Shown here: positions 9,661-63,900 of the stretch, piece after piece
Position numbering within the stretch: position 1 is the stretch's first letter
How the letters are laid out: the number at the start of each line of letters is the position of its first letter
Source of the DNA: Hyalella azteca
Lineage: Eukaryota > Arthropoda > Malacostraca > Amphipoda > Hyalellidae
Assembly (NCBI RefSeq): GCF_000764305.2
Contig: NW_025934572.1
Coordinates: forward strand, 548,850 to 612,849
Direction of reading: 5' to 3'
DNA length: 64,000 bases
Made by a program: the position numbers and the translations under genes
Notes under the pieces: generated by a model
Seen by the model: the letters and a program-made list of their open reading frames with translations, nothing else
What the model was told of the DNA's origin: nothing
Databases searched by the model: none

Positions 9661-9674
9661 TACACGCTCAACTT

Positions 9675-39252: not shown

Positions 39253-39822
39253 TATAGAATAGAATAATGTATTTATTTTCTTTTCAAATTTTACTATATA
39301 TAAGTTCCGTAGTATATTAATAAGTCGCTGCATCAGTTAGTAAAGCTCAAAATAACTTCTATTCCGAATGAATATCCGTTGGAAGGGGGAAATCAGAAAC
39401 ATTTTGATCCACGATACTGTATTGCAGAAGTAATGCAATACCATAATTTTGGCGCTTACCAAAATGAACAACAAACCGAGCAGTTAAGCGAAATTCGTCT
39501 AAGAAGTTTATGTAGAGACGTTAACAAATATATGTACGGTGCGATTAAATGTCAGTCTTGGAGTGTCGCATAAGCACTTTGGGATCCAAGTCTTCATGAG
39601 AGTTATATTATGGCAACGTCTCTCATCACTGCTTAGCTTGTCAGCAAACGCCGCATCAGTTTGATAAAAAAGCTCGAACGATATATGAGCTCAAACCATT
39701 ACAATGAATAAGACACATATTTGAGCATAAAAATGATTAAAATTTTGTTACATAGTAGTATTGATGCTGTTAGAAGTTGAGTGATCCCAACGTAGGCTAG
39801 GTCGTGGTGGACTGCAGGTGAT

Positions 39823-42482
39823 CTAGGCTGATGTCTTCCAATTAGACAACCACGTTTCCAGTTCAGCCATCTGCGGACCAAATAAAACCGGAAGTATTAA
39901 ATGGTTAATTTAAAACACTGGCTGACCAGAAAACTATCACTCGCCTCATTACTAGATACCCAACCACTAACCTTATAGCCATATGGTCCTTGTGCACCGT
40001 GGTAAACGATTTTGCCGTCAAGCACTACGAAAAGCCTCTCCGGCAGAGCGGTGTATTCCTCACAAGCTGCGCCGCTCTCGCTGTCCACCACCACGGGACA
40101 GTTGACGGGCTCGAGCTCCATCATGTAGCGCACCGCTGCCAGACGATCTTGTACACTCCTAGACAGAAGATTCGGTTATCGACCAAAATCTACTTCGTAT
40201 ATATATAGATTTTCGAGCAAATTATTAGTATATACACNNNNNNNNNNNNNNNNNNNNNNNNNNNNNNNNNNNNNNNNNNNNNNNNNNNNNNNNNNNNNNN
40301 NNNNNNNNNNNNNNNNNNNNNNNNNNNNNNNNNNNNNNNNNNNNNNNNNNNNNNNNNNNNNNNNNNNNNNNNNNNNNNNNNNNNNNNNNNNNNNNNNNNN
40401 NNNNNNNNNNNNNNNNNNNNNNNNNNNNNNCAACTAGTGTTCAAAGCGCGCGGTCTCAAACAACCGAGTACAAAAGTAGTGTAAACGGTTGTGCGCGGTG
40501 AGGCACTGCAGCAAACGACTCAAAGCGCATGTCGTTGCCACTAGTGTAAACGGGCCTTAACTCGCGGCCGCATGCTCAGCAGCGCCACGCATCGCTTAAT
40601 TTCCTCCCATGTTCACCAGAGCGACTGGGTATCCATTGGAAATGAGCTGCTCTCACTGGTATTTTGGCAAGGTAGTTGTGAATGGAGGTTACGATGTGCG
40701 CGTGACTGGAAGTTAGTCGCGAAATTAGCTGCAGATATGACATACTGTCGGGGCTGATTAGGGGCTAGGATAGAAAGGTTAGCAGCGCGGTAGACCATTG
40801 CTTGGTATTATTCAGGTATTATCTGGATGCTGTATAAGAAACGGGGATACTACTCAGAGGTTTTTCTTTTAACGCTCCCCGTTTTGGGCCCGATACATAT
40901 TTTTCACGAACATGGTGTGATGACTGCATTTCTTCAAACCAAACAAGTTATACATGGTAAGATTATAAGAGCCCAGAATAGTTTTGATCGCCAAATGGCC
41001 ACAAAAATTATTTAATTGGTGTATTGTATGTTTTAATGATAGCCAAGGAAATGAGAGGAGTGAGAACTTAAATTACATTGATGGCATGCCCTCTTATATT
41101 ATCATTCTACATCATTATTCCATTGCATTTTGCTATTATGGCTAATTGTTTTGTTTACCAAAGACGTACGCATTATACGCTGTAAGCGGTGCAGTACATA
41201 AAACTTTAAACAGACATTCTTTTGCATGCCGCTTTTTAGCTTCCCTCGGTGAAGCCGTATTTAAATGCCATGAGGCGCTTTCATTGCTTTCAGTTCTGCC
41301 ACGCTCTGTGCTAAACAACTGAACCTAGTGCCTGGCTACATCTCTATGCGTACTTTGCCGGCATTTTCAGGGTTTGGATGGGTTTGGATAGGAAAATCTT
41401 GTCGGGACTGCATAATGCCGTAATATAATTTTTTTTCTATATATTACCTTTCGTGACCTCGGACGAATCAGGAGCGCCTACAAATCCTCAATTTCGAAAC
41501 CTGAACTTATAGTCTGTGCGACTGTGCCAATGAAACCGATGATCTCCCATCAAAATTCCTGTCGCGTCCCCAGCACGTCACACTACCAAGCACCGAATTG
41601 GAAGCATCGGAGGAGAACAGTTTAAATTCTTTTAACTCATCCAGACATAATAGTAACGTAAATATTTCACTATCCGTTTTACATCGAATGAACTAGTATT
41701 AATTTCGGGCTTCCCGAAATAGAGCCCTAAAAATAATTGCTCCGCTGTTGGCGCTACAAGCTACCCACTAATTATTTTTCACTGAAAAGGAGTAAGAAAG
41801 AAACGCACAACGGGATCTAAAGCCGCCGCCAGAATATTTGCGGTAATTTTACTACGGTTTATTAATTAAATAACCCACGCATCAGCTTGATTGCAATATA
41901 TAAATTAAATGCATTTATGTTGGATAAAATTAAGGTGTATTACCTTCCTGAACTTGACGAGGTCCTTCATGAATGGAGGTCAGGAACAAGACCCGAAGTT
42001 GAGGACAAGAGGACGACCTTTTGAGGCGGCGTCCAACATTCGGCACGTCGTCTCATCATCCTCTCTCACCACCACAGGGTTAGGGGCGGATCCACCAACT
42101 TTGGTCTTACGGCGGTATTCCAGTAATGCCCTGTTTGAACTCCATGATTAGTTCTAGAAATTGATTTTAGGTATAAAGAAACCGTTTTAAAGATCGAGGA
42201 CTAAATTTGACTCGTTTCTTTGCCAAGTTTACTTTCATAATGCGATTTTTATTTATTGTTTGCAAGCTTAAACATAGAGAAAGTCAAAAGAATGGCCATA
42301 GACAATAAAATTTACATGCGTAACCCCAGGTTCTGCCTGAAGAAGAAGTAAGACAGGTTGAACACGTTCTTCGAGTGGTCGGACGCATAGGGGGCGAGGG
42401 CGAGAGCAGACCGGTACAAGTTGTAAGCTATCCACCCACAGCCATCCCATGCGAGCTTCAGCGCTCGCCAGGCTGCTTCCAT
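39823..42482 (-). CDS. Iodothyronine-deiodinase-like selenoprotein, copy A (exon 3 in gap)
   Basis: Deiodinases are membrane-anchored thioredoxin-fold selenoenzymes that remove iodine from thyroid hormones. Minus-strand exons: 42482-42316 ([20 protein letters not shown]), 42130-41944 (ending in the active-site block), 40158-39972 ([33 protein letters not shown]) and 39870-39823 ([15 protein letters not shown], stop). Lengths 167, 187, 187 and 48 nt equal those of copies B and C, with GT-AG borders. The active site reads [16 protein letters not shown]; the TGA is at 41982-41980. The 110-nt exon 3, carrying the two conserved His residues in the other copies, should lie between 40158 and 41944 but is absent, and an N gap is there. 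The gene is therefore incomplete in this assembly and perhaps intact in the genome. Confidence 0.85.
40238..40430. other. Assembly gap (193 N)
   Basis: A run of N interrupts deiodinase copy A. By alignment with unit B, sequence equivalent to about 48170-49780 (some 1.6 kb, including exon 3) is missing here, so the gap length is not real or the locus carries a deletion with a MITE insertion. Confidence 0.97.
40431..40556. mobile_element. Right end of a PIF/Harbinger-like MITE
   Basis: The sequence after the gap ends CACTAGTGTAAACGGGCCT then TAACTCGCGGCCGC. Unit B has CCTAACTCGCGGCCGC without it, so an element ending in GGGCCT, flanked by TAA, was inserted here. The terminus resembles that of the element at 59377-60404 (AGGCCCGTTTCC inward). 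Its left end is lost in the N gap. Confidence 0.65.
41980..41982 (-). promoter_or_regulatory. Selenocysteine TGA codon, copy A
   Basis: In-frame TGA between TCC and CCT in exon 2, at the position of the catalytic selenocysteine in deiodinases (GSCT-U-PPF type). Coding sequence continues after it to the exon end. The hairpin that follows it in copies B and C is broken by one substitution here (ATGAAGG instead of ATGGAGG). Confidence 0.87.
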
Positions 42483-44419
42483 CTCGTCAGGAGTTGAGCG
42501 GCTGACGGCAGCAGAAAGCAGTTAAAGTCGTACTATCAATTGACAATTGGCTAATCCTGTCTCGAAATAATTTTAGGGAAGTAATATGACATAAGTGTTG
42601 TAAGCAGTAGTTACGTGGTTACGCGTGGCGTCTCTTATCTCACGTTGTTTGATTGCGTGCATGTAAAGAAGCTGCTCCTGTCCGCTGACACTTTATGACC
42701 TGACATACTTTGCTCGTGGTTTCTTCCTGAAACTAACCCACCCAAATAAAAATTAAGGATGACGCATCGATGATTAGCATTCACTTTCTAAGAATTTTAA
42801 CAGAAATGATATTTACGAGAAATTCAAATAAAAATAATCGTCATAATAAATATTTACTGTCCGCATGCCCAGCCTCTGGAAAGAAGTAAATCAACCAGGT
42901 AAACTTTTAACCAGGATCATGGACGCGACGACCTGCTTGGTATGGAGCCGTGGACCATAAATTTAACATCACTACTAGAAACTTACATATTCTTTAGTAC
43001 ATTGTGATTGACGATAATTAATTGAGCAATATCGAAGAGTCAGTTGAAATATTCACTGCTGAAATGGAGTGTACGTACCTCCTTACGATTATAGGGAGAC
43101 ACTTGCTTCCCTGAGTTTCAGTGCAGAGAACTTTTTGTCTCACTCCTACCACGCCCACCTCATACCGTCAACTAAGTTCTCAGAGAAGAGTCAGAAGACA
43201 GAAGATGCTCGCCACTTTCAAGGCCATTTATTCAACTATATTTGGACAGCGCTAACGCTCTTCATTAATCTAGTCATGCACATTATTATTTTTAATTGTA
43301 ACAAAAATTCGTAATTTGAAGTGGAATTTGCAACCCCAATTGGATCTTGTCAAGAGTAAGCACCCCAGACATTACTAAGGTGCGTATTTTTGACAAGGTT
43401 AATGGGATGTATAATACAAACAAATTACGACTATTTGAACATTTTTTTAAATAAATGTACTTCAACGTAAAAAAATTACATTGCAAAACATTAAATCGCA
43501 AATGATAAGGCTGCATATGATATTCAGAAGGCGAGGAACAATTTATTGAAATACGTTATAATCCATGAAAGGGAGGATTAAACTCACTCATTAACAAAGT
43601 TATTATACAAAGGCTTATGCTAGGGTGCGTTTTATTAACAAGGTATACTAGGGAACATTTTCTTAACAAGGTCATATTTGGGTGCTAATTATTAACAAGA
43701 TCCCTCAGATCTATCGAATTTTTAATTTTTTTCTTATCAAATACCACATTTGAAGCGCTCTTAACAGGGCGAGTATGAATTTTACACACATATTAGTAGG
43801 TAGATTTGTGGTGCTAATAGACAAGAAAATTTAGATCATGTGCACTCAAAAGAAAAAAAAAAACGACACGTGTAGCCTTGAAGAAGTGTTTAGTAACTGA
43901 AAGGCGTGTGGTGTTGAAACTAATAGATTCTTGCTGAAAGGGTATGAGTAGCTAAGTAACAATTGGCGTCGCAACGAGCAGATTGTGTATCGTTACGCTA
44001 GATGCTTACTTCATACTTCGAGCGCTTCTTATGAATTTGAATTGTATTCTTAGTTTAATAATAATTCCAAATTTGCAACTTAATACTGTTCCTTGATTTG
44101 TTATTCCCGAAATTTCAATTTGCTGCAGTCATATTACGCAGTTGATTTTGCGTAAAGTAGTCTGTGACTCCTTAGATGTTACGGAATTTGGTTCCCAACA
44201 AAGTGATGGGTCACTATTGATCACCTATAGTATAATTATGGTTAACTTCGTTACGGTCAACAAGATGTTGACGCTGGTCTAGCATATTAGTACCTATTGA
44301 CGTCTGTATTACTCTGAGTTACGCTGGAATGTAATGGTATTACGTCGTATAGACCCCCAATTATAAATATTAGTTATTTATAGAATGGAAATGTCGGCAC
44401 TGAAGAAATAGGCCCATGG

Positions 44420-44900
44420 CCTGTTGCCGATTCATGTACTCTTCGTGACTTGATTCCATAAGAGATCCGGCCCATTGAACCCTATCTTTCCATAACTGAC
44501 GATTGTTTGAGATTGATGCTGGACTCATAACCAGTTCCGTGAGGTGCTAGGAATTTCAAGACTGAACATATGCTCCTCCATAGCTTTGTCTAGTCTGTTC
44601 TTGAAGGCGTTCATATTCGGAGCGTCAACGATGCCAAATAAGGGAGGCTGTTCCACATGTCGGTGACTCGAAGCGAGAAGAAATGTTGTCGCATGGATGA
44701 GTTACAACGCAGTTTTTTTAGTTTATAGCTGTGGCCCCTGGTGTTGGTTCTTATTTCAAATTCTAGTAATCCCTCTGGGACCTTGTAATTACAAATCCCT
44801 CTGGGACCCGTGGGTATACTTGTATACTTCATTGAGGTCACCACGCAGACGTCGATAACAGAGGCTTGGAAGCTTCATAGTCTTTAATCTTTCTTCATTT
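44420..44900 (-). pseudogene. Non-LTR retrotransposon (LINE) 3' ORF remnant
   Basis: The minus strand gives, with one or two frameshifts, EERLKTMKLPSLCYRRLRGD, LNEVYKYT, then TRGHSYKLKKLRCNSSMRQH, FFSLRVTDMWNSLP, and VDAPNMNAFKNRLDKAMEEH. This is the standard C-terminal end of many LINE reverse transcriptase ORFs (RRxRGDLxEVYK ... FFxxRVxxxWNSLP ... FKxRLDK). The upstream reverse transcriptase core is absent, so the copy is 5'-truncated, as most LINEs are. Confidence 0.88.
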
Positions 44901-47762
44901 TTTATGGAAATTTATAAAGAAAAAAATGATCAGGAATTTTTATAAATAATTATTTCGATTATTTATTCAAAACAAATTGTTTGATTTATAATTATTAGGT
45001 TCATATTTTGAAGAATGTGTACTCTGGAGTTTTAATGGTGTTCTGCACCCATATGGCGTTTGGGCTCGCGACATTTAAAATTTGGAAAAGGCAGAGAGCA
45101 TCGATAGAGACGACAGAAGAGTGATGAAAAAGCGTCGTAGAACAGACTCAAGGCGTAAATTTATATGTATAAAAATGGGTGACGGGACTTAAGGCCCTGT
45201 GTAATATTGCATCAAATTTGGTGAACAAAGAAGTCTGTGCTATGAACGGGGAATGGGACCCGAATGTCTGCAGTGGAACATGACCCGCTGCCAAAGATTG
45301 GGTCTCCCTTGTTTTAATGGATTTGAACAATTGTGCAGAAACAATAGAGGAGCAATTAGATTTAAGATTTACTGCTGATCACCACGGGTATTCGAGGAGA
45401 AGTTTTGAGAGAGCAAAGGTTCTTTTGCAAGTCCTGCTTTTCTTCACATTTGGCTTCTCTAGTGAAAATATAAGGTCTGTTAATTATCAAATGTTGATCA
45501 ATTTTCATATCTCCAATTCACACAACTTGATAACCTTCTCCATGACCTCCAGCCGTGCTGGATATTCGGATTTTCTCGCCAACGCAATGTACAGTAGACT
45601 TTCTATTGTAGCCAGTACGAGTTGGAGGTTTCCCGCTACAGCATTCATGAACAAATGTTCACCTAAAATCAATTACAGGCAGCGAATAAACGAATTTTTT
45701 CGCAACTATTAGTATCTATGAAAGTGTACAACCTTAAATAGCGATACAGTATTCATCTCGCTACTCTAGAAAATTCTCCCTATGATAGCTAATTCTCCGA
45801 AAACATGGATTTCTGTTTTGGGATTTGGTGAGAACACCTTTATTATTATTACACAGAAAATATTAACATAAGTTTTCAATTCGGTAAACGCTTCGTGACT
45901 TCCAAGAGAAGACGAATTTGCTCGTTACATGTTTTGCTTCGATTTCATGTTCCGAATGACAGTGCATGAAAGGCAACACTGCTAACTGATGAAAATTTTA
46001 TCTCGCTTGTTAATTCAGAAGTCACGGGGTGAAAACATAATAAACTGACAGTAGGTACTTCGCATCGTCACAAGTGGGCTCCAGAGGTCGGGGTTGTGTT
46101 AAAAAGTCGGCGTCAATATTTTTATTATGCAAAAAAGTAATAGTAAAGTATTATTAAGTTATACTTTAATTAAAAAAGTAAGGTATTATGAATACCTGCA
46201 CTGTCCAACATTATCATACTGCATATATAAGAAATCGGTTTAAATCATGAGTAGACGAGGAAATTAAAAATGAAATGATTCTAAAAAATCTGTGGTTCGT
46301 GGAATGTAAAAAATCTGTGGTTGCAATGTTGCAGGTTGCCTGGAATGCTAATAATATTAGCCGCACCTGCATTTAAATATCTTCTGATTTTGTTATAATA
46401 AAATCTCAATACTACGACGAATAGTTTGTCCCTAGACTTAAACTCGTGAAGAATTTCACGCCAATGAGCTTAGTATTCCAGGCTCCAGCCCGCTGAGTCC
46501 AATAAGTGAGTAGCTGGACTCTGGAGTCTGGCTGGATAAGGAATTATGTGTATGGCTCTGTTACTATGAGTTACTACATATGATATTAGTAATATCATAT
46601 ATGATATATGTCAACTGTTCATGTCTAGCATGCCATAAAAACGCTGTCCTAAAAATTTCATATTCAGGTAATCTAGTCAATGAAATCTTTTTCTCGTGGC
46701 TCCTAATTCTACATCTATATTTTTTGTGGTATATGAACAAATGAAGTTATTTTTTTTATTTGAAGGCTTCGGCTATGCAGGTAGCACACCTTCAAAGCTG
46801 AGCAGTGAGCACAACGGATATTTTGGACACTTCGTCACTTTTAGATTACTTCACTTTTGGATCACTTTACGTTTAGTTTTAGTACCTTCACCAGCCGATG
46901 TAACTGGAGATTTTGATGAGGAAAAATATAATTGGGCCTTGAAGAACAATCAAAACCAGTCCACCGAATTGCAACTGAGAAAAAATTTAAGTTACCGAAG
47001 CGTTTTTTTTTTGCAGCCTACTTTTCGTAAGTCTTTCAAACCCCAACTGATTGCGCTTCAGACGTTGGATTGACTCAAATAACTCAATAAGTTTATGGAA
47101 GCCGTTTAGAAACAAAAATTCAGTATCTGAGCGAATTTTAATGATAATTTGAATAACCTTGCTTGAAAATTCTAAATTAGTTATCGTGATATATAGTAGA
47201 ATAGAATAATGTATGACGTTTCTATTTGAATCTCAATATAAACAAGTGCCGTAGTATATTACTAAGTCGCTGCATCAGATAGTAAAGCTCAAATTAACTT
47301 TTATTGCAAATGAATATCCATTGGAAGGGGGAAATCAGAAACATTTTGATCCACGATACTTTATTGCAGAAGTAATGCAATACCATAATTTTGGCGCTTA
47401 CTAAATGAACAACAAACCGAGCAGTTAAGCAAAATTCATCCAAGAAGTTTATGTAGAGACGTTACCAAATATATGAACGGTGCGATTAAATGTCAGTCTT
47501 GGAATTTTGCATAAGCAATTTGGGATCCAAGTCTTCATCAGAGTTATATTATGACAACGTCTCTAATCACTTCTTAGCTTGTCAGCAAACGCCGCCTCAG
47601 TTAAATGAAAAGGCTCATTCGGAGTAAGAGAAACCATCAAAATATATGAGGAAATTATTTGATCATAATAATGATGCAATTTTTGTTACACAGTAGTATA
47701 TTGATGCTTTTAGAAGTTTTGTGATCACCACGTACGCTAGGTCGTGGTGGACTGTAGGTGAT

Positions 47763-50700
47763 CTAGAGTGATGTCTTCCAATTAGACAACCACGTTTCCA
47801 GTTCAGCCATCTGCGGACCGAATAAAACCAGAAGTATTAAATGGTTAATTAAAAACACTGGCTGACCAGAAAACCGTCACTCGCCTAATTACTAGATGCC
47901 TAACCACTAACCTTATAGCCAAATGGTCCTTGTGCACCGTGATAAACGATTTTGCCGTCAAGCACTACGAAAAGCCTCTCCGGCAGAGCGGTGTATTCCT
48001 CACAAGCTGCGCCGCTCTCGCTGTCCACCACCACGGGACAGTTGACGGGCTCGAGCTCCATCATGTAGCGCACCGCTGCCAGACGATCTTGCACACTCCT
48101 AGACAGAGGATTCGATTATTGACCAAAATCTAGTTCATACTCAGCGGGTTTCGAGCAATGATACAACTATTGTTGTTTTTTTTCCGGCACCTACATACGA
48201 TAAAAATCAAAGGCGATGAAGGGATGAGTGCGGCCAATTTGTATGAAAATAATCAGATCACGTGATGAATTAGGACCCACTTGTGAGTAGGGATTTCGAC
48301 AGTATTTGGGATGAGCCACCCATCTGTGGGATGCGCCTCTTGTATGTACACGATCAGGAAGTCCGCAACGTCACCGTACATAGTCACCACCTGCGCATCA
48401 ACATTTTGTTATTATAGATGTCTAATTTGTACTGGAATTGTTTTTGTTATGAATACTCAGAGAAATGTATCGCCTCTGAGCACTCTTGGCTACATTTTTT
48501 CTCCTTATGAAGTCTCGGTGATAAGCGTTTTCTAACTCCAGGTGCTGTTGCAATAAAGCGATTAACAGCAGACTCCTAGATTCTTTTTCTAGTTTTTCTT
48601 AAGAGCGTCTGATCAGTACTTGCAGTTCGTTCTATTAACTTGCTTTTCATATGCTTAGAAAACCTAACTCCTTTTCCACATGAGCTTACAATTATTTTTC
48701 CAGTTGACTATTCGTGCACCACTCAAGCGTTGCACACATGTATTCAATATTTAAAGCTTGCCGTTCTTTATTGTTGTTAAATTGAAATGCGTGAGACTCG
48801 TCAGCATGAAAAGCTAGCTACTAAGTATCAGCCAAAGTAACTGAACTATCATTATTACAGTGCAGCTGCACTTTTTTCCGACGCATAATTCACAATTTTT
48901 TTTCATTTGGTCATCACACATGAAGCACAAGCTTGATACTGCTTCTGGTAGATCGCTTATAAACACATAATAACACGTAATGAGATCGGCCCGAGAACGC
49001 TTCGCCATGCGGCACGCCGCTGTGCACCTATCTCCAGTCCGACACTTCACTTGACACCGGCCCGCTGACGTCATCCTATTGTTGTTGTTGGTGATGGTTT
49101 CTTCGTTGATTCATCCCGTAAGCTGATGATGGCTCATTCCCAGGGTTAATAAAAAAATTTCTAGCGGATAGGAAGTGTCCACAGCCGCGATGCCTGTGGT
49201 GGGATTGCTAGGGCGCATGCAGAGCAGAATGTGCTAATCGGTCCCAGCTCGCGTGTACTGTCTTGCTTCATTTGGTGAAGAGTATTGTGGAAGAGCAGAT
49301 GTATTCTTCCACAAGCGAGACCAGCTGAGAGGATCAGCAGTGTCTCCTCTAAGCAGCGTGACAGAGCTGTGTACTGTGAAGCTGTGGGTGTGTGAAGCTG
49401 TGTACTGTGTTTGTCACAGGGTAGAACGAGGATCTTCGTATTAGGTCAGTGGTGAAGTTGAGGTGTGCTGTTCCTGGAACCTGACAGTTAAGCATATCTC
49501 GACAGGTGTCAAGGCGTATTTGACAGTTAAGGCGTAGACCCTGGAACGGGTCTGACGTATCTCGTAAAGGGCTTTGCTAAACGAGGCTATATCGAGATGT
49601 AGGAGTGCAAAAAAGGGTCTCTAATGTTGCGTTGAGGGACCACAGTCGGACGGACAGCTTTCACCGTGCCCAAAGCAAACCATCCATGGATTGATGTCCA
49701 TCAGGATTGAAATAATTGCAATGCTTCCTAACCCAGCGTTAACCTCAGCTTGGCTGTGTCAAAGTGGACGTCCACTAAGCAGCCTAACTCGCGGCCGCAT
49801 GCTCGCAGCAGCACCACACATCGCTTAATTTCCTCCCCAGGTGCACCAAGCAACTGGGTATCCATTGGAAGCGAGTTGCTCCAACTGGTATTTGGGCAAG
49901 GTAGTTGTGAATGGAAGTAACGAGGTGCGCGTGACTGGAAGTTAGTCGTGGAACTAGCTGCAAAGATGACATACTGTCGGTGCTAATTAGGGCTAGGATA
50001 GAGCGGTTAGCAGCTCGGTAGACCATTGCTTGATATTATTCACGTATTATCTGGATGCTATATAAGAAATAATACAACTCCGAGGTTTTTCTTTTAACGC
50101 TCCCCGTTTTGGCCCCGATACCTTATTCACGAGAATGGTATGAGGACTGCATCTCTTCAAATTTAACAAACAATATATGGTTAGATTATAAGAGCCTAGA
50201 TAATTTTTTTATCACTGAATGACCACAACAAATCATTTAATCTATTTATTGTATCTGTTTTAATGATAGGCAAGGAAATAGGATGATCGTACGACTTAAA
50301 TTTCATTGATGGCATGCCATCTTATATAATCATTTTATTTCATTATTAAATTGTACTTCGCCATATTGGCTATTCGTTGGGTTACCAAAGCCGTACGTAT
50401 TATACGCTGAAGCGAAGCGGTGCAGTACATTTCACTTCACACTTCAAAGCAAAATTTTTTGCATGCCACTCTTTAACTTCCCTCGATGAAAATGCCACAA
50501 GGCGATTTCATTGCTTGCAGTTCTACCACGCTAGTTGAACTAAACAAAGCAATGCTAAACCTAGTGCACGGCTATTTCTCGATGCATGCTTCGACATTTT
50601 CATGGTTTGGATCGGAAAATCTTGTTGGGACTGCATAATGCCACAATATACTTTTTTCTTCCCTGTAAATTGGTCTTCGTGACCTCGGACGGATCAGGAG

Positions 50701-51718
50701 CGCCTCTAAATCCTTCAGTTATAAACCTTAACTTATATATAGTCTGTGCCGATGTTACCAAGGATCTCTCGTCAAGATTCCTGTCTCGTCACCAGCACGT
50801 CACACTGCCCAGCACCGTATTGGAAGCATCGGGGCAGTAGAATTTAAACGCTCATCCCGCCATAATCTTATCGCAAATATTTAATTGTTCGTTTTACTTC
50901 GAACGAACTAGCGTTAATTTCGGGTATCCTTAAATAGAGCAAATTGAATTGGAGCCCTAGAAGTAACCGCTCCGCTGCTTGCGCTGCAAGCCACCCACTA
51001 ACAATCTTTCACTGAAACGGAGTAAGAAAGAAACGCACTACAGGATCTAAAGTCACCGCAAGAATATATGCGGTAATTTTACTACGGTTTACTAATTACA
51101 TAACCCACGCATCGGCTTGACTCCATTATATAAATTAAATTCATTTGGGTCGGGCAAAATTAAGGTGAAATACCTTCCTGAACTTGACGAGGTCCTCCAT
51201 GAATGGAGGTCAGGAACAAGACCCGAAGTTGAGGACAAGAGGACGACCTTTTGAGGCGGCGTCTAACATTCGGCACGTCGTCTCGTCATCCTCTCTCACC
51301 ACCACAGGGTTAGGGGCGGATCCACCAACTTGGGTCTTACGGCGGTATTCCATTAATGCCCTGTTAGGACTCAATGATTAGTTCTAGAAATTGATTTTAC
51401 GTGTAAAAGTGTTATAAATATCGTTCAATAAATTTTTACGCAATTCTTTGCGAGGTTCACTTTCATAATGCCAGTTATATATATATTGTTTGTGAGCTCA
51501 AACACAAGAGAAAAAAAAAACAGAAGAATGGCCATAGAAAATGAAATTTACATGCGTAACATCTGCTTCTGCCTGAGGAAGAAGTAAGACAGATCGAAGG
51601 TGTTCTTCGAGTAGTCGGACGCAGAGGGGGCGAGGGTGAGAGCTGACTGGCACAAGTTGAAAGCTATCCATACAACGCCATCCCAGGCGAGCTTCAGCGC
51701 TCGCCAGGCTGCTTCCAT
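47763..51718 (-). CDS. Iodothyronine-deiodinase-like selenoprotein, copy B
   Basis: Minus-strand exons: 51718-51552, 51360-51174, 48390-48281, 48098-47912, 47810-47763, giving 699 nt, 232 residues counting TGA as selenocysteine (residue 106). GT-AG borders and phases all close. Order: weakly hydrophobic Trp-rich N-terminus (a likely membrane anchor), [14 protein letters not shown] linker, [17 protein letters not shown] active site, [16 protein letters not shown] with conserved His 138, IPTHKSVQDRL with His 154, CPVVVDS and [16 protein letters not shown]. Human type 1 deiodinase (249 aa) has the same order of blocks. The frame stays open upstream of the ATG to a possible acceptor, so a further 5' exon cannot be ruled out. 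Substrate is inferred from family only; other thioredoxin-fold reductase activity is possible. Confidence 0.9.
51195..51212 (-). promoter_or_regulatory. Selenocysteine TGA and adjoining hairpin, copy B
   Basis: The TGA is at 51212-51210. The next 16 bases, CCTCCATTCATGGAGG, are a perfect inverted repeat (7-bp arms around TC, or 6 bp with a 4-nt loop). A stem just 3' of a Sec UGA recalls the selenocysteine redefinition element of SELENON, but this stem is short and overlaps the codons for PPFME. Confidence 0.75.
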
Positions 51719-53230
51719 CTCGTCAGGAGTTAAGCGGCTGACGGCAGCAGAAAGCTGTTACATGTCGTGCTATCACTTTGCTAATCCTGTCTCAAAAGAA
51801 TGTTTGGGAAGTTATATGACAACTATTGACAAGTGTTGTAAACATTAGTTGCGTGGTTACGCGTGGCGTCTCTTATCTCCCGTTGTTTGATTGCGTGACT
51901 GTAAATAAGTTACTCCCGTCCGCTGACAGTTTATGATCAGCATTCACTATTCTTGAATTTTAATACAAATTATATATACGAGAAATTCAAGGAAAATCAA
52001 TTTTCATCACAAATGTTTACTGCCGGAAGTTTTCTTGCCAAGCCTCGGTAAGGAAGTGGATTCAACCAGGTAAATTTTTAACCGGATCATATATGTACTA
52101 GTCTAGATGACCTGTTTGGTATCGAGCCGTGGACCATAAATGAAACATAACTACTGGAAACCTACTACTTCTTCTTTAATTTATTGTGACTGACAATTAT
52201 TTGAGCAATGTCGAAGAATTGGTCGAAAAATCCACTTTTTGAAGAATTGGTCGAAATGTACCTCCTTGAGATAACAGGGATACTCACTTGCTTTCCCGAG
52301 ATTGAGTGCTGAACTGTTTCTCGCTAACCTACCACGCCCACCTCAGACCGTCAACTAACGGAACTAAGTTCAACTCAGAGAATGAGAAAGTTGCTTGTCT
52401 CTTTGAAGGCCATTCGTCCCAGTTCCAACAACAGTTAAGCGCAAAATAATTATTAATTGTTGTCTTGAAGTGCATAAAAATGCATGATTTGAAAATCTAT
52501 AGTGGAATTTCCAAAGCAAATCGCTGGAATTTTTAATGTTTTCTTATCAAATATTATATTTGAAGCATTTAACAGAGTGAGTATGACTTTTACACACATA
52601 TTAGTAGGTAGATTTCTAGTGATAATAGACAAGATAATAACCATGTGCACTCAAAAGAAAAAAAATAACGATACATGTGGATATTAAGAAGTGCTCAGTA
52701 ATTGAAAGGCGCCTGGTGTTGAAACCGATAGATTCTTGCAGAAAGAGTATGAATTGCTCACGAACAATTGGCGTCCCAACAAGCAGATTGTGAAACGTAA
52801 AGGCCAGTCCACACGCTTAGTTTACACAACGCAGTCTTTTGTCTGAGCATTGAGTCGCAGTCTACAGTCGGAATTAAATCGTAGCAATTTTTAGAGCGTC
52901 CAAACGTTGCCGACATAGGTATTTGTGTAGTTGCTCAGTTTTGTGGGATCTTACCATGGAGGAGGTACTTTGGTCAATTTTGGCATTGTGCCTTGTTAAA
53001 AAAAACATTGGAACGTCACAGAAGTAGCTGGCGTTCAAAGTGGTTGCAGAAGTGGACTTTTTTCACACTGCATTGCTGCGCGAATTACATGATGAACCTC
53101 GTGCACATACTTAAGGAATTGCTTAAGGATGGACGTATACACACGTACATATTTATTAGAATTAGTGACACCTCATATAATAAGATAAAATACAGTTATG
53201 AGAACAGCAATATCACCACACGAAAGATGA

Positions 53231-54049
53231 AAGCCCCGTCCACACACTCAAACTTATCGTCAGTCTTGCATGTTATGCCAAAGTTTGACAGAGAAGACGG
53301 AAGACTGACGAGCGTCCACACTATTCAAATTTTCCTTCAGTTTAGTGCGTTCTAGAGCCGGCAGCGGAGGAGGTTGTGTTGTTCGCTGCAGTGATCGCAG
53401 TTTGTACCACCAAAATTAGGTTAAAGCCATGTAAACGTACGCTGTGGTCCCGAAAATGGTTTAGAAAATACCACAATGCAGGTTGATAGACAGCCTCCCT
53501 ACCAGCACCAGCCCGCATTGACGACTTCATTTAGGCACATTCTTTTCGATAAACCGTACGAAAAGTTTATTTTCTTCGTTACAAAGTCTTTGTTTGCTGT
53601 AGGATCAAATTCTTTGCACTTAGCTATCAATGCCGCCTAGGCCAGTGCTCTCTTGTTATTGACACTAGATTTTTATTGATTATGCCACAAACAAGGAAGC
53701 TACGGTAGTATTCAATTAATTCACGAAAGAAAGCGTGCGACCAGTGTCGGATATCTTGAGATATCATTTTGATGCGAGCGAACAATGTCACAGATCACAA
53801 CATCAATACAGACTGAGACAAAGTAAAAGCTTGACCAATTAGTCGGTTGCTCACACTCAAACTTATCGTGTCTTGCATGAACCCAATTAAAGGTCTCGCC
53901 CGTCCGTCTTTTCCAGGTTTGTCAAACTTCAAACTCCACCCACCCGTCATGCAAGACGTCAAACCTTGAGCGTCCACACACTCCGTCTTGTCGGTCAAAC
54001 CTGGCATGACATGCAAGACTGACGATAAGTTTGAGCGTGTGGACCGGGC
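53231..54049. mobile_element. MITE with ~45-bp inverted ends
   Basis: CCCGTCCACACACTCAAACT then TATCGTCAGTCTTGCATGTT at 53231 is matched in reverse complement by CATGCAAGACTGACGATAAG then TTTGAGCGTGTGGACCGGG at about 54003-54049. The words GTCTTGCATG and CAAACTT are reused further inside. It has no transposase. It lies upstream of copy B in the interval shared with copy C and is absent from the matching part of unit A. Confidence 0.8.
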
Positions 54050-55231
54050 TTAACGCCTCGTCCACACACCCCGTCCGTGCGGTAAGCTATTCCTGATTTT
54101 CCAAAGACGAATTTGTTCGATAGTTGCTTTGCTATGATTTCATCTTCCGAATGACATTAAAAGGCAACACTACTAGCTAATGAAGATTTTATCTCGCTCG
54201 TGAATTCAGAAGTCACGGGGTGAAAACAAAATAAACTGGCAGTAGTTATTCGTGTTTACACAGGTGGGCTCCAGAGGTAGGCATCATAATGAAAAGGCGG
54301 CGTCAATATTTGACTGTTTGAAAAGCGGCGTCAATATTTGACTAAAATAGCTAGTAGTAATTATGACTAATTACATGAACGGATAAATACGTTATGATAG
54401 ATTTTATTCATTAACATGCTAGAGCTAAGCTAACATTGAGAAAAATTGTTTTGTATGATGATGAACCAAGGCATGCTGCAGATGTTCCCGAAACTTTGAG
54501 ACGTAAAAAGAAGCAGCGCATATTCCTAGAAACAGCCAGTTTCGAATGATGAAGTCCAGAGCGTTCCTCAATCTTCTTGAACTGCAACTCTGGCCAAAAT
54601 CACAAACTTCTGTATTAGCAACTTAAACTGCTAGCAACTTTTTCATGCAACAGAAAATTGTCTCCGGGAAGACAGAGATTTCATTTACCTATAAGTTAGA
54701 TAGAAAAATAATCAATCATATTCTGAATAATGGTCACATTTAAAGTGTTACGTGACGGTAACCATCAGTGCAAGTCATTTTGCGCTCACTAACAACGCAT
54801 CATTTTTGGTAGGATTGAATGATAATATCGCTCCGGTTACTCATGTCAGGCGGTAGAGGATTAATAGCTCCTTGTGAAAGACTGTGTAAAGCATAAATGC
54901 GTAGAGTTGAATAATAATGTTTGGCGAAAAACATCTCATTAAGTAAGCACAAAGGATATACGAATAGAAAAGAAACATGGCCTTTTATGCTATGAAAGTG
55001 AAAGTGTTCGACAACCTTTTGGCCTTACTGGCACGTAGTCGATAAACGGCAACCACAAACTTGGCCTCAAGATTGAACCCCTTAAAATTGAATGGATTTT
55101 GCGGAAGATTTCGACTCCTTTTATTTGAATAATTAATATTAAAAAATGATAATATTCTCATGCTCGAAGCCGGAAACATAAACCTGCAACCTTAATCTCT
55201 GACTCAATGGCACAATTATTCGGCCACTTTC

Positions 55232-55350
55232 CGATATTCAGTTTATCATGATTTCATTTATACAGCGCAATTTTATTGTATTTTTGCAGCGGCCGGTACA
55301 TTAAATAAAATTACTCTATATAAATGAAATCATGATAAAACCGAATATCG
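55232..55350. repeat. Foldback repeat, ~31-bp arms
   Basis: CGATATTCAGTTTATCATGA (55232 onward, to 55262) returns in reverse complement at 55320-55350 with one indel and one substitution. The spacer is about 57 bases. It lies between the divergent copies B and C. Confidence 0.85.
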
Positions 55351-56633
55351 TTGACCGTAATTTAAGCGACTACTCCGTTAGTGACCTAAGTAATGACTGC
55401 AGGCCGAAAGTACCAGGTCACCTTAAGTACACTGGCCTGCATTCCGCCCAGCTAGACCTATGCAAGACGATATTACGGGGAAATTTTTTTTGTCATTAAG
55501 CGCGCGCGCAATGTGAAGTAAGCATCTCGCAACGCAATAAGCTCGTCGCGAAGCCAATTGTTTCTGAACAATTTATACTCACTCTTTCAGGTTGCAACAC
55601 CACGCGCCTTTCAATTACTTTAAACACTTCTTCGAACCTACATGTGTCGTTGTTTTCCTTTTGAGTGCACATAATCTAAACTTTCTTGTCTATTAGCTCT
55701 ACAAATCTACCTCCTAATATGTGTGAAAAATTCATACTCACTCTTTTAAGAACGCTTCAAATGTTGTACTTGATAAGAAAACTTTAACAATTTTATTGAT
55801 TTGGGTTGGAAATTCCATCAACGTTTTTCAAATTATGCAATTTTGTTACTGTAAGACAACAATTAATAATCATCTTGTGCTGTTGTGCATGACTGCATTG
55901 GTGGAGAGTGTTGGCGCTATCCAAATGTTGTTGGACGCATGGCCTTCAAAGAGACAGCGAGCAGCCGAGCACCACTGCACCATCTCCGAGTCTACGAGAT
56001 CGAGAACTTAGTTGACGGTCTGAGGTGGGCGTGGCAGGTCAGAGAGAGGAAGTTGTGAACTGAAACTCAGGGAGGCAAGTCTCTCTCCAAATTATCGTAA
56101 CGAGGTACATGCACTCCATTTCAAAAGTTGATTATTTGACTGACTCTTTGACATTGCTCAAATAATTACCGTCAATCACAATGTATTGAAGAAGAAGTAA
56201 GTTTCTATTTGATTAGTTATGTTTCATTTCTCCACGGCTCGATACCAAGCACTGTATCAGGTCATCGCGTCCATGATCCTGGTTAAAAGTTTACCTGGGA
56301 TTATCCCCTTTTTTCCCGAGGCTGGGCCAGAAAACTTCCGGACAGTAAATATTTGTGATTACTATTAATCTTATTGTTATTTTTCGGAAATATCATTTCT
56401 GTTCAAATTTTTAAAAAGTGAATGCTGGTCTAAAAGCGTCAGCGGACGGGAGCAGCTTTACAGGCACGCAATCAATCAACAGGAGATGAGAAACGCCACG
56501 CGTAACTAATGTTTACAAAACTTGTCTCAGATTACTTTCCTGACATTCTTTTGAGACAGGATTAGCAAAGTTATATCACGACTTCCAACTGCTTTATGCT
56601 TGTGTCAGCAGCTTCGGCTCAGCCGCTGACGAG

Positions 56634-59346
56634 ATGGTTGCAGCCTGGCGAGCGCTGAAGCTCGCATGGGATGGCTGTGGGTGGATAGCTTTCAACTTTT
56701 ACCAGTCTGCTCTCGCCCTGTCCCCCTCTGCGTCCGACTACTCGAAGAACGTCTTCAACCTGTCATACTTCGTCCTCCGGCAGAAGCTGTGGTTATACAT
56801 GTAAATTCCATTGTCTATGGCCATTCTTTTGACTATTTCTGTGTTGTTTTGGCTCTTACTGTTCAGCTTGCAAACAATAAATAGAAATCGCATTATGATT
56901 AAGTGAACCTGAAAGAGAATCACGCCAAATTTAGTGGCCGATATTTACAATACTTTTACACCTAAAATCAATTGCTCGAAACTAATTATCGAGTCAAAAC
57001 AGGGCATTAATGGAGTATCGCCGTAAGACCAAAGTTGGTGGATCCGCCCCTAACCCTGTGGTGGTGAGAGAGGATGATGAGACGACGTGCCGAATGTTGG
57101 ACGCCGCCTCAAAAGGTCGTCCTCTTGTCCTCAACTTTGGGTCTTGTTCCTGACCTCCATTCATGGAGGACCTCGTCAAGTTCAGGAAGGTATTTCACCC
57201 TAATTTTACCTGACCGACATACATTTAATTTATATACTGAAGTCAAGCTGATGCGTGAGTTATTTAATTAGTAAACCGTGTAAAATTACCGCAGATATTC
57301 TTGCGTCGACTTAAGATCCCATGGTGCGTTTATTTTTATCCGTTTCATTGAAAAATAATGAGTGGGTGGCTTGCAGCGGAGCGGTTACTTCTAGGGCTCC
57401 AAATCAATTCGCTCTATTACAGGATACCCGAAATTAACGCTAGTTTATTCGAAGTAAAACGGGCAGTGAAATATATGCGATAAGATAATGGCTGAATGAA
57501 TTAATAGCGTTTAAATTGTACTGCTCTGATGTTTGCAATTCGGTGCTGGGCAGTGTGACGTGCTGGGGGACGAAACAGGAACTTCTTGTTAGAGATCCTG
57601 TGTTACATCGGCGCAGATTTTAACTATGTTCAGGTTTCGCAAAGAAGGATTTGAAGGCGCTCTTGATCAATCCGAAATCACGAAGACCAATTTGCAGGGA
57701 AGAGAAAATTATATTGAGGCATTTTACGCAGTCCCGACAAGAATTTCCGATCCAAACCCTGAAAATGTCGAAGAAGCACTCTTTGCGATGTAGGCTGGCA
57801 TTTGGTTTAGCATTGCTTTGTCAAACTCAACAAGCGTGGCAGAACTGATAGCAATGTAAGCGCACTGTGTCATTTATATACGGCTTCATCGAGGGAAGCT
57901 AAAAATTGGCATGCAAAATAATGTTGGTTTGAAATTTTGTGTACTGCACCGCTTACAGTGTATAATGCGTGCGGCTTTGGTAACTGAAACCATTAGACAA
58001 TATAGAGATATGCAATGATATGATGAATGATGTAGAATGATAATATAAGATGGCATGCCATCAATTAAATTTGAGGTGTCGCTCCTCTTAATTCTCTGCC
58101 TATCATTAAAACAGATACAATACACGTATAACATTATTTTAGTGGCCATTCGGTGGTCAAAATTTATCCGGGCTCCTATAATCTTACGCTATATTACTTG
58201 TTTAATTTGAAGAGATGTAGTCTTCCTACCAATTTCGTGAAAAATGTTAAAGGGAGGTAAATGGGAAAATGGGGTTTTATGATTATGTGGTTATGACCGC
58301 ATTATGATCGAGACTGCATAAGGAGAATCAATTTTGCCAAGAGTGTTCAAAGGCGATTCATTTCACTGAGTATTAATAACGAAATAAATTCCAGGACAAA
58401 TTAGACGTATCTTTAATAAAAAAATGTTGATACGCAGGTGGTGACCATGTACGGTGACGTTGCTGACTTCCTGATCGTGTATATACAAGAGGCGCACCCC
58501 ACAGATGGGTGGTTCATCCCAAATACTGTAGAAATCCCTACTCACAAGTGGGTCCTAATTCATCACGTGATCTGATTATTTCATTTAAATTGACCGCACT
58601 CGTCCCTTCATCGCCTGTGATTTTTATCATATGTAGGTGCCGGAATAAACTACAATAGTTGTAGTATCATTGTGTATACTAATAATTGGCTCGAAAACCG
58701 CTACTACTACCGAGTATATGCTAGATATACTAGTATATACTACCGATTATATACTAGATTTTGGTCAACAATCGAATCTTCTGTCTAGGAGTGTACAAGA
58801 TCGTCTGGCAGCGGTGCGCTACATGATGGAGCTCGAGCCCGTCAACTGTCCCGTGGTGGTGGACAGCGAGAGCGGCGCAGCTTGTGAGGAATACACCGCT
58901 CTGCCGGAGAGGCTTTTCGTAGTGCTTGACGGCAAAATCGTTTACCACGGTGCACAAGGACCATATGGCTATAAGGTTAGTGGTTAGGTATCTAGTAATG
59001 AGGCGAGTGATAGTTTTCTGGTCAGCCAGGGCTGTACGTTTACCATCAAATTTCCAAAATTCATGTGTTGTGTGTTTTTCGCTTTAATCATAAATCTGCC
59101 CGACACACGTTTTTTGGGGCGAGCCATAATTTATTTTCTACTTTTTAGTCCACAAGAAAAACGTGTTTTTAAAAAAGTTTTTTTAGGTAATTTATTTTCT
59201 ACTTTTTAGTCCACAAGAAAAACGTGGTTTTTAAAAAAGTATTTTTAAGTATTTTATTTATTAACCATTTAATACTTCGGGCTTTATTCGGTCCACAGAT
59301 GGCTGAACTGGAAACGTGGTTGTCTAATTGGAAGACATCAATCTAG
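56634..59346 (+). CDS. Iodothyronine-deiodinase-like selenoprotein, copy C
   Basis: Plus-strand exons: 56634-56800, 57003-57189, 58438-58547, 58789-58975, 59299-59346, again 699 nt and 232 residues with U106. Start [14 protein letters not shown]; active site [17 protein letters not shown] with TGA at 57151-57153; [13 protein letters not shown] with His 138; [15 protein letters not shown] with His 154; the last exon encodes [15 protein letters not shown]. Exon sequence differs from copies A and B mainly at scattered sites, and no copy has a frameshift or extra stop, so selection has kept all three. Copy C is inverted relative to B, with start codons 4.9 kb apart, so the two may share upstream control sequence. 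Intron 4 and the 3' flank contain insertions unique to this copy. Confidence 0.92.
57151..57168 (+). promoter_or_regulatory. Selenocysteine TGA and adjoining hairpin, copy C
   Basis: TGA is at 57151-57153, directly followed by CCTCCATTCATGGAGG, the same perfect inverted repeat as in copy B. Read-through is supported by the open, conserved frame in the rest of exon 2 and in three further exons. Confidence 0.78.
59127..59248. repeat. ~61-bp tandem duplication in copy C intron 4
   Basis: TTATTTTCTACTTTTTAGTC followed by CACAAGAAAAACGTG and a T/A run occurs twice in tandem. It lies within an insertion (about 59033-59255) not found in intron 4 of copies A and B. Confidence 0.88.
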
Positions 59347-59376: not shown

Positions 59377-60404
59377 AGGCCCGTTTCCACTACGGGACTG
59401 ATTCTGAAGGATTGAGATTGGCCTGAGACCAATAAGCCACATGGCTGGACTTGAAAACTGGCGTGCGCGTTTCCACTACACGAGTGCTGGGACTGGGATT
59501 GAGACTGACCGTCTGGGCTACCTTACTCGTTGGCCTTTGAAAATAGATTATGCTGCCCTTCTTGCTTTACTAGCTGTTGTCACAATGCGCAGGAGGAAAC
59601 AAAAATCTATTTACCTAATAGCAGTAATGAAACGCAAGCATGGTTTCAAACTTCTCATTAACATAGTTTATCCGTGTAATAACATGCATTCACCAAGGGA
59701 TTAAGAAACAGCATTATCTTATTATACCTTTAATGTGTCGAAAAAATTATATGTAATAAATACACCACAATGTTTAACCATGTCTGGTTTTTGGTCTATA
59801 GATTTAGATAGGTATCATAGCGTGCTTCACAAATGCTACTACTATTATTGGTTAATGTGTTTGGTTAATGTGTAATTTACTGAGTATACATACACTGTAA
59901 GTACAATAAGATAATTAAGATTTTTTAATTGACGGACGAGTGAATCTATGTCAATAAACAGATAAAATCGGTCAATGAGAAGTTAGGAAGTATTATTTCC
60001 ATTTTTCGATGTTCGTGGATGGATATAATTTTTCCATTTCTTTACTTATTTTCTTTTATTCTCAAGATTCTGTCTTTGCAAAAAAAAACTTTTTACTTGC
60101 CAGAAGCAAGGTGCCTCTCTATACAAATCGATAAGCCTTTCAGTGACACCTCTGCTCCAGTCTCCGTCGTGCGACATGGCAAAGAGGCAGGCAATGGTGC
60201 GTCTATTGGAGCGCCAGCCCAGCACACAACCTCCTTAAACGAAAGTCACAGCGACACTGCCCCTTGCCCGTCGGGCCGTCACGCAAGTCCAGTAATAGAT
60301 TGAACAGCGCTTGACTCCTCGTCACTCAAGTCTTGATGGTCCGGACTGAAAAAGCCAGTTTTTCAATCGTCAGTCTCGCAGAATCTCATAGTGGAAACGG
60401 GCCT
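59377..60404. mobile_element. PIF/Harbinger-like MITE in copy C 3' flank
   Basis: The element is 1028 bp, with ends AGGCCCGTTTCCACTA and TAGTGGAAACGGGCCT, exact inverted repeats of 16 bases, flanked by TTA on both sides (59374-59376 and 60405-60407). Aligning units A and B shows the empty site. A 3-bp TTA duplication is the hallmark of PIF/Harbinger. The frames inside (59441-59704, 60019-60303) resemble nothing known. It begins 30 bases after the copy C stop codon, so it lies in the presumed 3' untranslated region. Confidence 0.9.
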
Positions 60405-60950
60405 TTATGTGGTGATCAATAAACGTCTAACAGCATCAATACATACTACTAGTTTACTATATAACAAAATTTTCATCATTGTCATGATCAAATATTTTTC
60501 TTATTTATTGTAATGGTCTCTTCATATTTCGTTTGAGCTTTTTAGTCAAACTGATGCGAAGTTTGCTGACAAGCAAAGCAGTGATGAGAGACGTTGCCAT
60601 AATATAACTCTCATGAAGACTTGGATCGCAAATTGCTTATGCGACGTTCCAAGACTGACATTTAATCGCACCGTACATATATTTGGTAACGTCACTACAT
60701 AAACTTCTTTGACGAATTTTGCTTAACTGCCCGTTTTGTTGTTCATTTAGTAAGAGCCATATTCAAGTTATTGCATTACTTCAGTAATAGAATGTCGTGG
60801 ATCAAAATGTTTCTGATTTCCCCCTTCCAATGGATTTTTACTAGCATTAGAAGTTACTTCTGAGCTTGACTATCTGATGCAGCGACTTAGTTATATACTC
60901 CGGCACATCTATATATTGAGATTCAAATAGAAACTTCATACATTATTTTA

Positions 60951-63900
60951 CCCTACTATACAACATGATGAATAATTGAAAAATTTTAAGCAAATTACCA
61001 AATTATCATTAAAAACGACCGAAGGCACCAAAAGACAAACAAAAGGAAATTAATTATATGAAAATAAATTAGAATTTTAATGATAATAAATCTAAAAAAT
61101 GGCAATAGAAATAGAAAAAACGAATTCAGCAATACAGACTAGCAAAACTCCGGAGGGAGAAAGCCAGTCGTGTAAGTATTGTGAATAATCAAGCAATACA
61201 TTATTTTCCTGGATATTTGAAAATTTTTGATTAACTTATAGAACTGACCTACAATATTCATCTTAGTCTTGCAGTAACTACATCTTTCTACCGTAGAAAT
61301 AGGTTAGCAATAAATCGATTTTTATCTTCCAGGTATGGAATACTTTACCGTCAACAAGCCCCGCCGCCTCGGGCAACGTTGCCACATGATATATTTATAT
61401 ACCAGATTTAACAAATGTGCTATTTTCAGAAGGTGTCTGGTATGAATATTTTAGATCTGGTACATTTGCCTAAATCTAGTATTTCCTGACTTACTGCAAA
61501 TGTACTGCATTAAGCTCAACCGCTGAAGTTTGAACGTTCCCCAACGTAGGCGTGGATTTTATAGATTACCTTCAGAGCGGCGCGACTAGAGGTTTCCCGC
61601 CATTTTTGGAACCGCGAGATTACCGCTTAATGAAATAACCCCAATCTAATTGTAAACTTTTAACAAAAGTGCTTAGTGCAATATAAGCACGAGAGTGATG
61701 ATCCTTGATTGATTACTGATCAGCGATGAAATGGCCTATGACGAGTGAGGTTGTCGAACCGATCTGTGCGACGCAAGCTCCACCATTTTTGTTTGATGGT
61801 TTTGAATTCTAGAGTGCCACTTGAATTCTGGGGTGCATTCAATATTTCACTGATCTTGAAAGTCGTCATCCATTCATGGAACTGGCTGCCTACTGCATCA
61901 CTTGTCAACTTTGACCTGTCTTCAATGCATTCGAGAGCGAGCGTTTTCACAAGTCACTTATGTGAAAAACAAGCAACGAAGTAAAATTTCAACTAAGGCA
62001 CTGGAGTCCCTTATTCGGACCAAAAGCTATCTGCTCAGCCGCCACAAGTGATCACACCCGAAATGTTAGATAAATGCAATATGCAAGCATGCACGAAAAT
62101 AAGCAAAAGGAAGATGACCTGTTTCCGTGGCTTACTCATCTCGGGTGAAGAAGAAGAAGTGACACACTGTGATAAAAAAGGAAAAAGTTTCAATATAATC
62201 AAACACAGGAAAAGAAAAGTGTCAAAATGTTTCAAACAGAGGGAAGAAATATAACGTGTTCAATTTGGTTAATTATCGTCAAGCCAGATAAATGCACAGT
62301 ACATAAGATAATTTTTTTTTCTTTTTCTCACCAACGTTTCTGACGAATAGTTTCATTGATTAAATTTGGAGGTATTAGTCTGTTTTTTAACAATAGAATT
62401 TCTGCTATTTTGAGCTAGGCAATCTGGTATTCTCGCCAATAAAAAAGCTGGCCACACTGGAGGCGACCAGGGCAGAGATTAACGAAACTTCGCTAAGTTC
62501 ACGTAACTTTTCGTACTTACGTTCAAAAAGTTACGTATGGCGTAAGTCAGTCAAAATTTGGCATCAACAAAACTGTCTTACGCATGACTCATCTGAAAAA
62601 CAAAATTTGTACGTAACTCCGCTTACGACACCTCCGAGCAGGCGTACAGTTATGCACAAATTTTTGTACGTAGCTTCCCGCGCAAATGTTTCGATAATAA
62701 CACTCAGTAGAGTCACGTCTACTTAGCTGTACTTACGCTAAACGTTAGCGGCTACGTATACTTAGCATGTTTTGATAATCCGGCCCCAGGGCTCACAGCG
62801 CTGGGTTTTTCTACCCAGATCTGGGTTTTTGGCCGTCACCTGGGTGTCTGGGTGGATTTTTCTTTTAAATGGCAAAATCTGGGTTATTTCCCCACAAAAT
62901 CTGGGTGTTTTTAAGCAATCATCTAAGTTTTTCTCAAATTATTGGCTGGGAGTCCCTGGAGGCGACCAGCGTTCGACAGTCGACGGCGACGCCGCTTGTC
63001 AGTTGTCAGTGTTGCGTCATCTGTGATAGGTTGCGCAGTGCGTATATTGGCGCTCAAGCAATGTCTAATTATCCACCAGATCCTGAAGATCGGAACGAAT
63101 TAGAGTTTCGTCACTTCCTGACTAGCAGACTTCAGCCGACATATTGGCTGGTATTTAGAAGGCTCAAATTTCATGGAAGAGAACTGGAGTTCGATTGAAC
63201 GCTTGTCACGAAAAAGTAAAATAGAATACAAGCTAACCACCGGTGTGAATTTTCTGGCAATGCTACCTAACCACATATCAGACGTTCTCAGAGTCACAGG
63301 CGCTTTTGAATTACCATATGCACTGTGGTCCAAATTGTATACTACGGTATTTCATAGCTACAAGAAGTCTTTATAAAAAAGTTTACTTGGCATTACTTTT
63401 TCAAGGGACACTTCTGTAAATAGGTCGAAGAAAATTTTTCAGTTTGATCTACGGAAGAATGCATACTAGCTTCCAGCTTGACATGGAAAATTAATATTGG
63501 ATAGCAAACCTATACAGCGACAATGTCATCCATGACACAAGAAAAAAGCGTTATTGAAATTCGTTATTCGTTCTTGCATGCACAGACGTAAATTATTAGT
63601 CCTGGATTTTCGATGCGGCCCCGAGGAGTAGGGCTATATCGTCCCTCCTCCTTGGGTGAATATGGTGCACAGTTTTATTAAAAATATCGCTCTGTAAGAC
63701 TAACCAGTTATTCACCACCTCACCCCCCTTCTTCTTTTTCTTCATTCATTTTACACTTTTTTCCTTTATAATACACACATCTTACAACAATGTCTCTCAT
63801 TCGCTTTAGATTACAAATTTATCTAAAGCGAAATTTATCTTTTATTTACACTCCACCAAAAAAAGTCAATGACCAGCAACGCCTCAAGGAAATTGGCCTC

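Follow-up and report, generated by a model that had tools for sequence, protein, structure and literature searches.

Selenocysteine (Sec) occupies the catalytic position of vertebrate deiodinases. Outside the chordates, Sec and a SECIS element have been described for a deiodinase homologue of the amoeba Dictyostelium, with no gene cluster mentioned in the relevant passages of that report (PMC2375036). Crustacean genes bearing the deiodinase name are in print as transcripts of krill (PMC9259678) and prawn (PMC12071124), in passages that treat expression alone, without Sec, SECIS, or a gene cluster. An annelid deiodinase is represented by an EST (PMC2762978), and a paper on an oyster deiodinase is cited in the reference list of PMC10361620. 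For selenoproteins in general, counts of 20 are given for a centipede (PMC4244043) and of 16 and 17 for Daphnia and a sea louse, respectively (PMC5330540), many are stated to occur in shrimp on the basis of the authors' unpublished EST data (PMC2375036), and a type 2 SECIS was predicted for a crayfish glutathione peroxidase (GPx) (PMC8872551).

The window analyzed here is the 64,000-base end of a contig, 612,849 bases long, from Hyalella azteca, a freshwater amphipod crustacean with a 519-Mb assembly. It contains three deiodinase-like genes (copies A, B, and C; Table 1) which, with high probability, encode selenoenzymes of the deiodinase family. Like the krill and prawn genes, they belong to a crustacean and their locus carries the deiodinase name, here in a database; like the Dictyostelium homologue, they combine a probable Sec codon with a candidate SECIS. 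Unlike any of these as reported, they form a cluster, with copies A and B on the minus strand and copy C on the plus strand, coordinates 39823 and 59346 being the final bases of copy A exon 5 and copy C exon 5. A six-frame search of the genome using the T4_deiodinase profile returned eight matches, all eight of them inside this cluster. The first-pass annotation, made from the letters alone, had proposed a local expansion in a probable arthropod, and both proposals agree with the identity of the source and with these genome-wide matches.

Table 1 Coordinates of the deiodinase-like genes and associated features in the window
Feature	Position	Strand	Remarks
Copy C exon 1	56634..56800	+	167 b
Copy C exon 2, TGA codon 106	57003..57189	+	187 b; T4_deiodinase profile match
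Copy C exon 3, EAHPTDGW	58438..58547	+	110 b; profile match
Copy C exon 4	58789..58975	+	187 b; profile match
Copy C exon 5, stop TAG	59299..59346	+	48 b
Copy C insert in 3' region	59377..60405	.	1,029 bases; no counterpart in A or B
Copy C 3' block common to B (84% identical) and A	60406..61014	+	SECIS candidate inside
Copy C SECIS candidate core, AUGA to GA	60613..60658	+	starts 1267 b past last base of stop codon
Copy B exon 1	51552..51718	-	
Copy B exon 2, TGA codon 106	51174..51360	-	
Copy B exon 3	48281..48390	-	
Copy B exon 4	47912..48098	-	
Copy B exon 5	47763..47810	-	
Copy B SECIS candidate core	47493..47538	-	starts 225 b past stop codon
Copy A exon 1	42316..42482	-	
Copy A exon 2, TGA at equivalent place	41944..42130	-	
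N run, copy A exon 3 expected	40238..40430	.	193 bases; position inferred
Copy A exon 4	39972..40158	-	
Copy A exon 5	39823..39870	-	
Copy A SECIS candidate core, weak stem	39552..39597	-	starts 226 b past stop codon

Spliced copies B and C consist of exons of 167, 187, 110, 187, and 48 bases that together encode 232 residues with one in-frame TGA (codon 106), and all four introns of copy C have GT/AG borders. The claim of three five-exon paralogues with identical exon lengths, A lying partly in a gap, was confirmed; in A, four of the five exons (1, 2, 4, and 5) were placed, with matching lengths, and exon 3 was not found in the assembly. Judged by the distance between exons 3 and 4 in B, exon 3 of A would fall in the one long N run. 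The TGA claimed for all three genes was recovered at codon 106 of B and C and at the equivalent place in exon 2 of A. The conserved block said to follow the TGA and the YTALPERLF block are both present in B and C; in A, just the parts carried by exons 4 and 5 are visible.

The three database models examined for this locus are broken in three ways, by a stop at the TGA, a start after the TGA, and an apparent fusion of two copies. HAZT_HAZT011269 terminates in LVLNFGSCS at the residue preceding the TGA, P0095 ("type I iodothyronine deiodinase") matches copy B starting at the Met after the TGA, and HAZT_HAZT011267 apparently runs from copy B, with its exon 3 plus a portion of exon 4, into the end of copy A.

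Elsewhere in the window, an open frame at 24315-25382 (minus strand) matched the DEAD-box family (43.7 bits) and includes a long acidic stretch overlapping a 42-base tandem repeat; we take this frame to resemble DDX24. A second frame, at 25607-26032, matched nothing in Pfam. Tandem arrays were present at 9669-10480 (152-base unit, 5.3 copies) and 21013-21419 (41-base unit, 9.8 copies).

Family membership was determined by comparing the translated copies to Pfam and PDB. The two complete proteins scored 206.3 and 207.2 bits against T4_deiodinase (cut-off 27), and the sole other Pfam family matched, Redoxin, fell below its own cut-off. The best PDB matches were mouse Dio3 (4tr3, E 6e-46) and Dio2 (2.4e-35), followed by a third and last match, a thioredoxin family protein (E 0.87). 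The database search proposed alongside the first-pass annotation thus returned deiodinases, and not another family, as the best matches.

In alignments, codon 106 falls on the catalytic position of the solved Dio2 and Dio3 chains, and relative to it the Hyalella proteins retain Ser (-3), Cys (-2), Tyr (+27), Glu (+30), His (+32), and the second His. Counting along the alignment from the Dio3 catalytic residue, which we take to be number Sec170 and which corresponds to codon 106, residues S103, C104, Y133, E136, and H138 correspond to Dio3 167, 168, 197, 200, and 202, and W143, H154, C175, and Q211 to 207, 219, 239, and 275. Across 18 aligned rows S103, Y133, E136, and H138 were invariant and H154 nearly so. 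A proton relay of Ser127, Thr129, Tyr157, Glu160, His162, and His182 has been proposed for Dio2, along with a substrate clamp at Dio3 Arg275 (Lys241 in Dio2) (PMC11592359). The relay Thr position is Ser105 in the Hyalella copies, a conservative change, and Gln211 takes the place of the clamp; the substrate may therefore be gripped differently. Relative to mouse Dio3, the catalytic domain is alignable over 169 residues and shares the catalytic position, the Cys at -2, the Tyr, the Glu, both His, and likewise the loop D Trp; the Hyalella genes differ in having Gln for Arg275, Ser for the Thr just before the catalytic position, a weakly hydrophobic predicted N-terminus, a five-exon structure, and a three-copy cluster. 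No strong transmembrane segment was found in A, B, or C by 19-residue mean hydropathy, the best values being 0.89 (C), 1.32 (B), and 0.65 (A), with the N-terminus predicted from sequence alone.

The TGA at codon 106 is very probably read as selenocysteine, given a tRNA-Sec, SepSecS, three Sec GPx matches, and purifying selection past the TGA. The tRNA-Sec match reached 76.3 bits (cut-off 47) and was the lone one above the cut-off among 11 in the genome; sub-cut-off matches mean little, as they were present in 14 of 14 control genomes (five of 14 had matches above it). ARAGORN classified this match as tRNA-SeC with anticodon tca. SepSecS was represented by four exon matches, all above the cut-off (controls: three of 14). 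SelD-like matches, four in number and all below the cut-off, are weak evidence because the same search responds in 13 of 14 control genomes. Six glutathione peroxidase matches were found in the genome, five of them with one TGA each. The TGA lies at the canonical Sec site in three of the six, L025 (NVASKUGLT) and the near-identical pair L027 and L028 (NLATYUGLT); L026 has Cys at that site and a TGA elsewhere, L029 has a TGA elsewhere, and L030 has none. The Sec reading offered by the first-pass annotation, which a host genome lacking Sec machinery would have contradicted, is supported, and that machinery is present.

Were the TGA an ordinary stop yielding a truncated protein, as in model HAZT011269, which ends exactly there, the lack of an Rfam SECIS match (below) would fit too. 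Against this, the family match is strong and the ratio of nonsynonymous to synonymous change is low beyond the TGA. In the comparison of C with B, dN is 0.0099 and dS 0.107 over codons 56-231, with purifying selection to either side of the TGA; the 126 codons after the TGA carry seven synonymous and three other changes, which indicates that this latter region is under selection as protein. Vertebrate deiodinases have Sec at this position, other Sec genes are present in the genome, and several relatives show W, or C, where we read the W in their models as a TGA translated as Trp. An ordinary stop is accordingly very improbable.

A candidate SECIS with a common layout (AUGA and, after 13 bases, AAA, then a short upper stem and GA) was identified behind all three copies. 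In each fold the lower stem has 2 + 6 pairs, interrupted by a single A-A mismatch, and the lower-stem letters, AUGA, AAA, and GA are identical in the three copies. A three-way common candidate arose in none of 1000 column shuffles and was absent on the antisense strand. Shuffles of the core folded as stably in 1.1% of cases for C, 0.8% for B, and 13.8% for A. Single SECIS-like stems at -8 or better numbered 14 on both window strands (0.11 per kb), the three candidates included. In a relaxed scan (32, 32, and 59 raw matches, ten listed per copy) the candidate came top for C and was third for B; that of copy A fell outside its ten and only surfaced in the search for candidates shared by three copies. 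A hairpin from the strict scan (C 60584, A 39626) was discarded because its AUGA is part of the stem and reads AUUA in copy B, and window candidates at 5698, 36515, and 45648 (-10 or better) were set aside as not lying behind deiodinase genes or not being common to the copies.

Rfam gave no match on the whole window, five chance matches on 29 kb with SECIS not among them, and no SECIS_1 match on the 3' stretch of any copy even with E up to 10. Genome-wide, SECIS_1 (150 of 12,875 first-look candidates scored) produced four matches, the deiodinase candidates not among them; none reached the cut-off of 35, the best scoring 32.3 bits at C4362:89150-89212. In the controls the model responded, below the cut-off, in four of 14 prokaryotes. 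A similar stem scan of the 8 kb downstream of the three Sec GPx genes yielded three, two, and one candidates on the sense strand and two, one, and three on the antisense strand, so the scan is not selective alone. The single sense candidate of L034 (position 2460, G000:C4362:89159) coincides with the best SECIS_1 match. Since SECIS_1 stays under its cut-off throughout the genome, even behind a Sec GPx gene, the silence of Rfam is weak evidence.

Several sub-cut-off SECIS_1 matches lie elsewhere. One, at C1356:678440, is about 4.4 kb past SelD-like matches (G000:C1356:671585-674036) and close to the end of a contig that also carries the Cys-type GPx L026 (G000:C1356:317297). Two others, L042 (G000:C190:24248, minus strand) and L040 (G000:C3429:12592), have the AUGA...AAA layout and may mark other selenoprotein genes.

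Between copies, exons 2-5 differ at 0-6 bases and exon 1 at 18-25; for codons 1-55 of C and B, dN was 0.152 and dS 0.230. Identity of C and B, gaps aside, was 79.0% over the upstream 500 b, 73.7% in intron 1, 82.1% over the initial 1000 b of intron 2, 90.1% in intron 3, and 89.2% in the 3' block. The coding part appears to have been kept alike by selection, and perhaps by gene conversion too. The profile search returned 301 proteins, the best 120 of which include corals, molluscs, and vertebrates. The tree suggested with the first-pass annotation was built from 53 rows, namely copies B and C, each starting at residue 56, and 51 of 128 database proteins; nine rows were long-branched. Left out were 77 proteins, among them P0001, P0002, and P0095, which are broken models of the genes in this cluster. 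Copies B and C formed a clade (100/94), as did Hyalella and Trinorchestia (99/90). Among the matches listed, the deiodinase of Trinorchestia longiramus (P0116), like Hyalella an amphipod of the superfamily Talitroidea, showed 62% identity across 53% of the query; its model begins beyond the Sec position. The tree and the identities between copies fit a duplication that postdates the split from Trinorchestia, an apparently recent triplication. Also among the matches listed were four deiodinases (P0069, P0070, P0073, and P0076), each on a contig of 1,751,612 bases, perhaps another local expansion.

Not every copy need be functional. Sec insertion could be failing in one or two copies, or copy A could be a pseudogene, and the missing exon 3 and weak SECIS stem of A would be in keeping with such decay, as would the 1-kb insert in copy C, which lies between the stop codon and the SECIS candidate, has GGCCCGTTTCCACTA inverted at its ends and TTAA/TTTA at its borders, and looks like a DNA transposon. 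However, exon 4 of A equals that of C over all 187 b, the other A exons found keep frame, exon 3 is expected inside an N run, and the lower-stem letters, AUGA, AAA, and GA remain the same in all three copies; we regard decay as unlikely.

Function was considered through a proposed mechanism. The UGA at codon 106 would be read by tRNA-Sec as selenocysteine under the direction of a 3' UTR SECIS element. In the resulting thioredoxin-fold enzyme, the Sec selenolate would work with a Ser103/Tyr133/Glu136/His138/His154 relay, iodide or another halide would be removed from an iodophenol-type substrate, and the enzyme would be reset by a thiol. The likeliest role, at roughly an even chance, is to clear or recycle the iodine of iodothyronines and comparable haloaromatics that come from the diet or the environment, and not to activate a hormone that acts through a nuclear receptor. 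Possible, if somewhat doubtful, is that an arthropod apparently without a thyroid hormone receptor has retained and tripled these enzymes as general dehalogenases for receptor-independent detoxification or salvage of iodine and halogens, with copies distinguished by the fast-evolving N-terminal exon.

Alternatively, these could be endocrine deiodinases that activate or inactivate an iodothyronine signal governing moulting or development, with copies specialized by tissue or location via the divergent N-terminal exon; this differs as to role alone, the selenoenzyme identity being common to both. The faster divergence of exon 1 relative to the catalytic part speaks for it, as do the krill and prawn deiodinase-like genes reported among seasonally or diet-regulated transcripts (PMC9259678, PMC12071124). 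On the other hand, a genome search with the human THRA ligand-binding domain (E <= 1e-3, seven candidates scored) found no clear thyroid-receptor ligand-binding domain. Its three matches were closest in PDB to Rev-erb (NR1D2), to the ecdysone receptor (EcR), and, for the third (53 residues), to an entry titled "nuclear receptor domain-containing protein," for which VDR, THRA, and DAF-12 scored similarly. An endocrine role could run through a receptor that is divergent or split, or along a non-genomic route, but we consider it somewhat unlikely. A receptor-independent deiodinating or dehalogenating role is favored because no clear thyroid receptor was found.

The first-pass annotation overstated the novelty of the locus, as deiodinase-like genes had already been named in krill and prawn (PMC9259678, PMC12071124) and the locus itself already bears the database name "type I iodothyronine deiodinase." With crustacean deiodinases and rich non-insect selenoproteomes in print, the Hyalella cluster is a well-supported further case of a known family. 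No literature on this cluster was found in a search covering mostly papers available without subscription. New here are the triplication, which appears to be recent, the candidate SECIS, and the finding that no ligand-binding domain in the genome is clearly that of a thyroid receptor, by a search with the human THRA domain.

In ecotoxicology, Hyalella azteca is a standard animal. Having these enzymes modelled correctly is important for studies of selenium and of pollutants that are halogenated or disrupt the thyroid, and the three models examined are broken. If a thyroid hormone receptor is truly absent, the cluster would be a test case for deiodinases beyond thyroid endocrinology.
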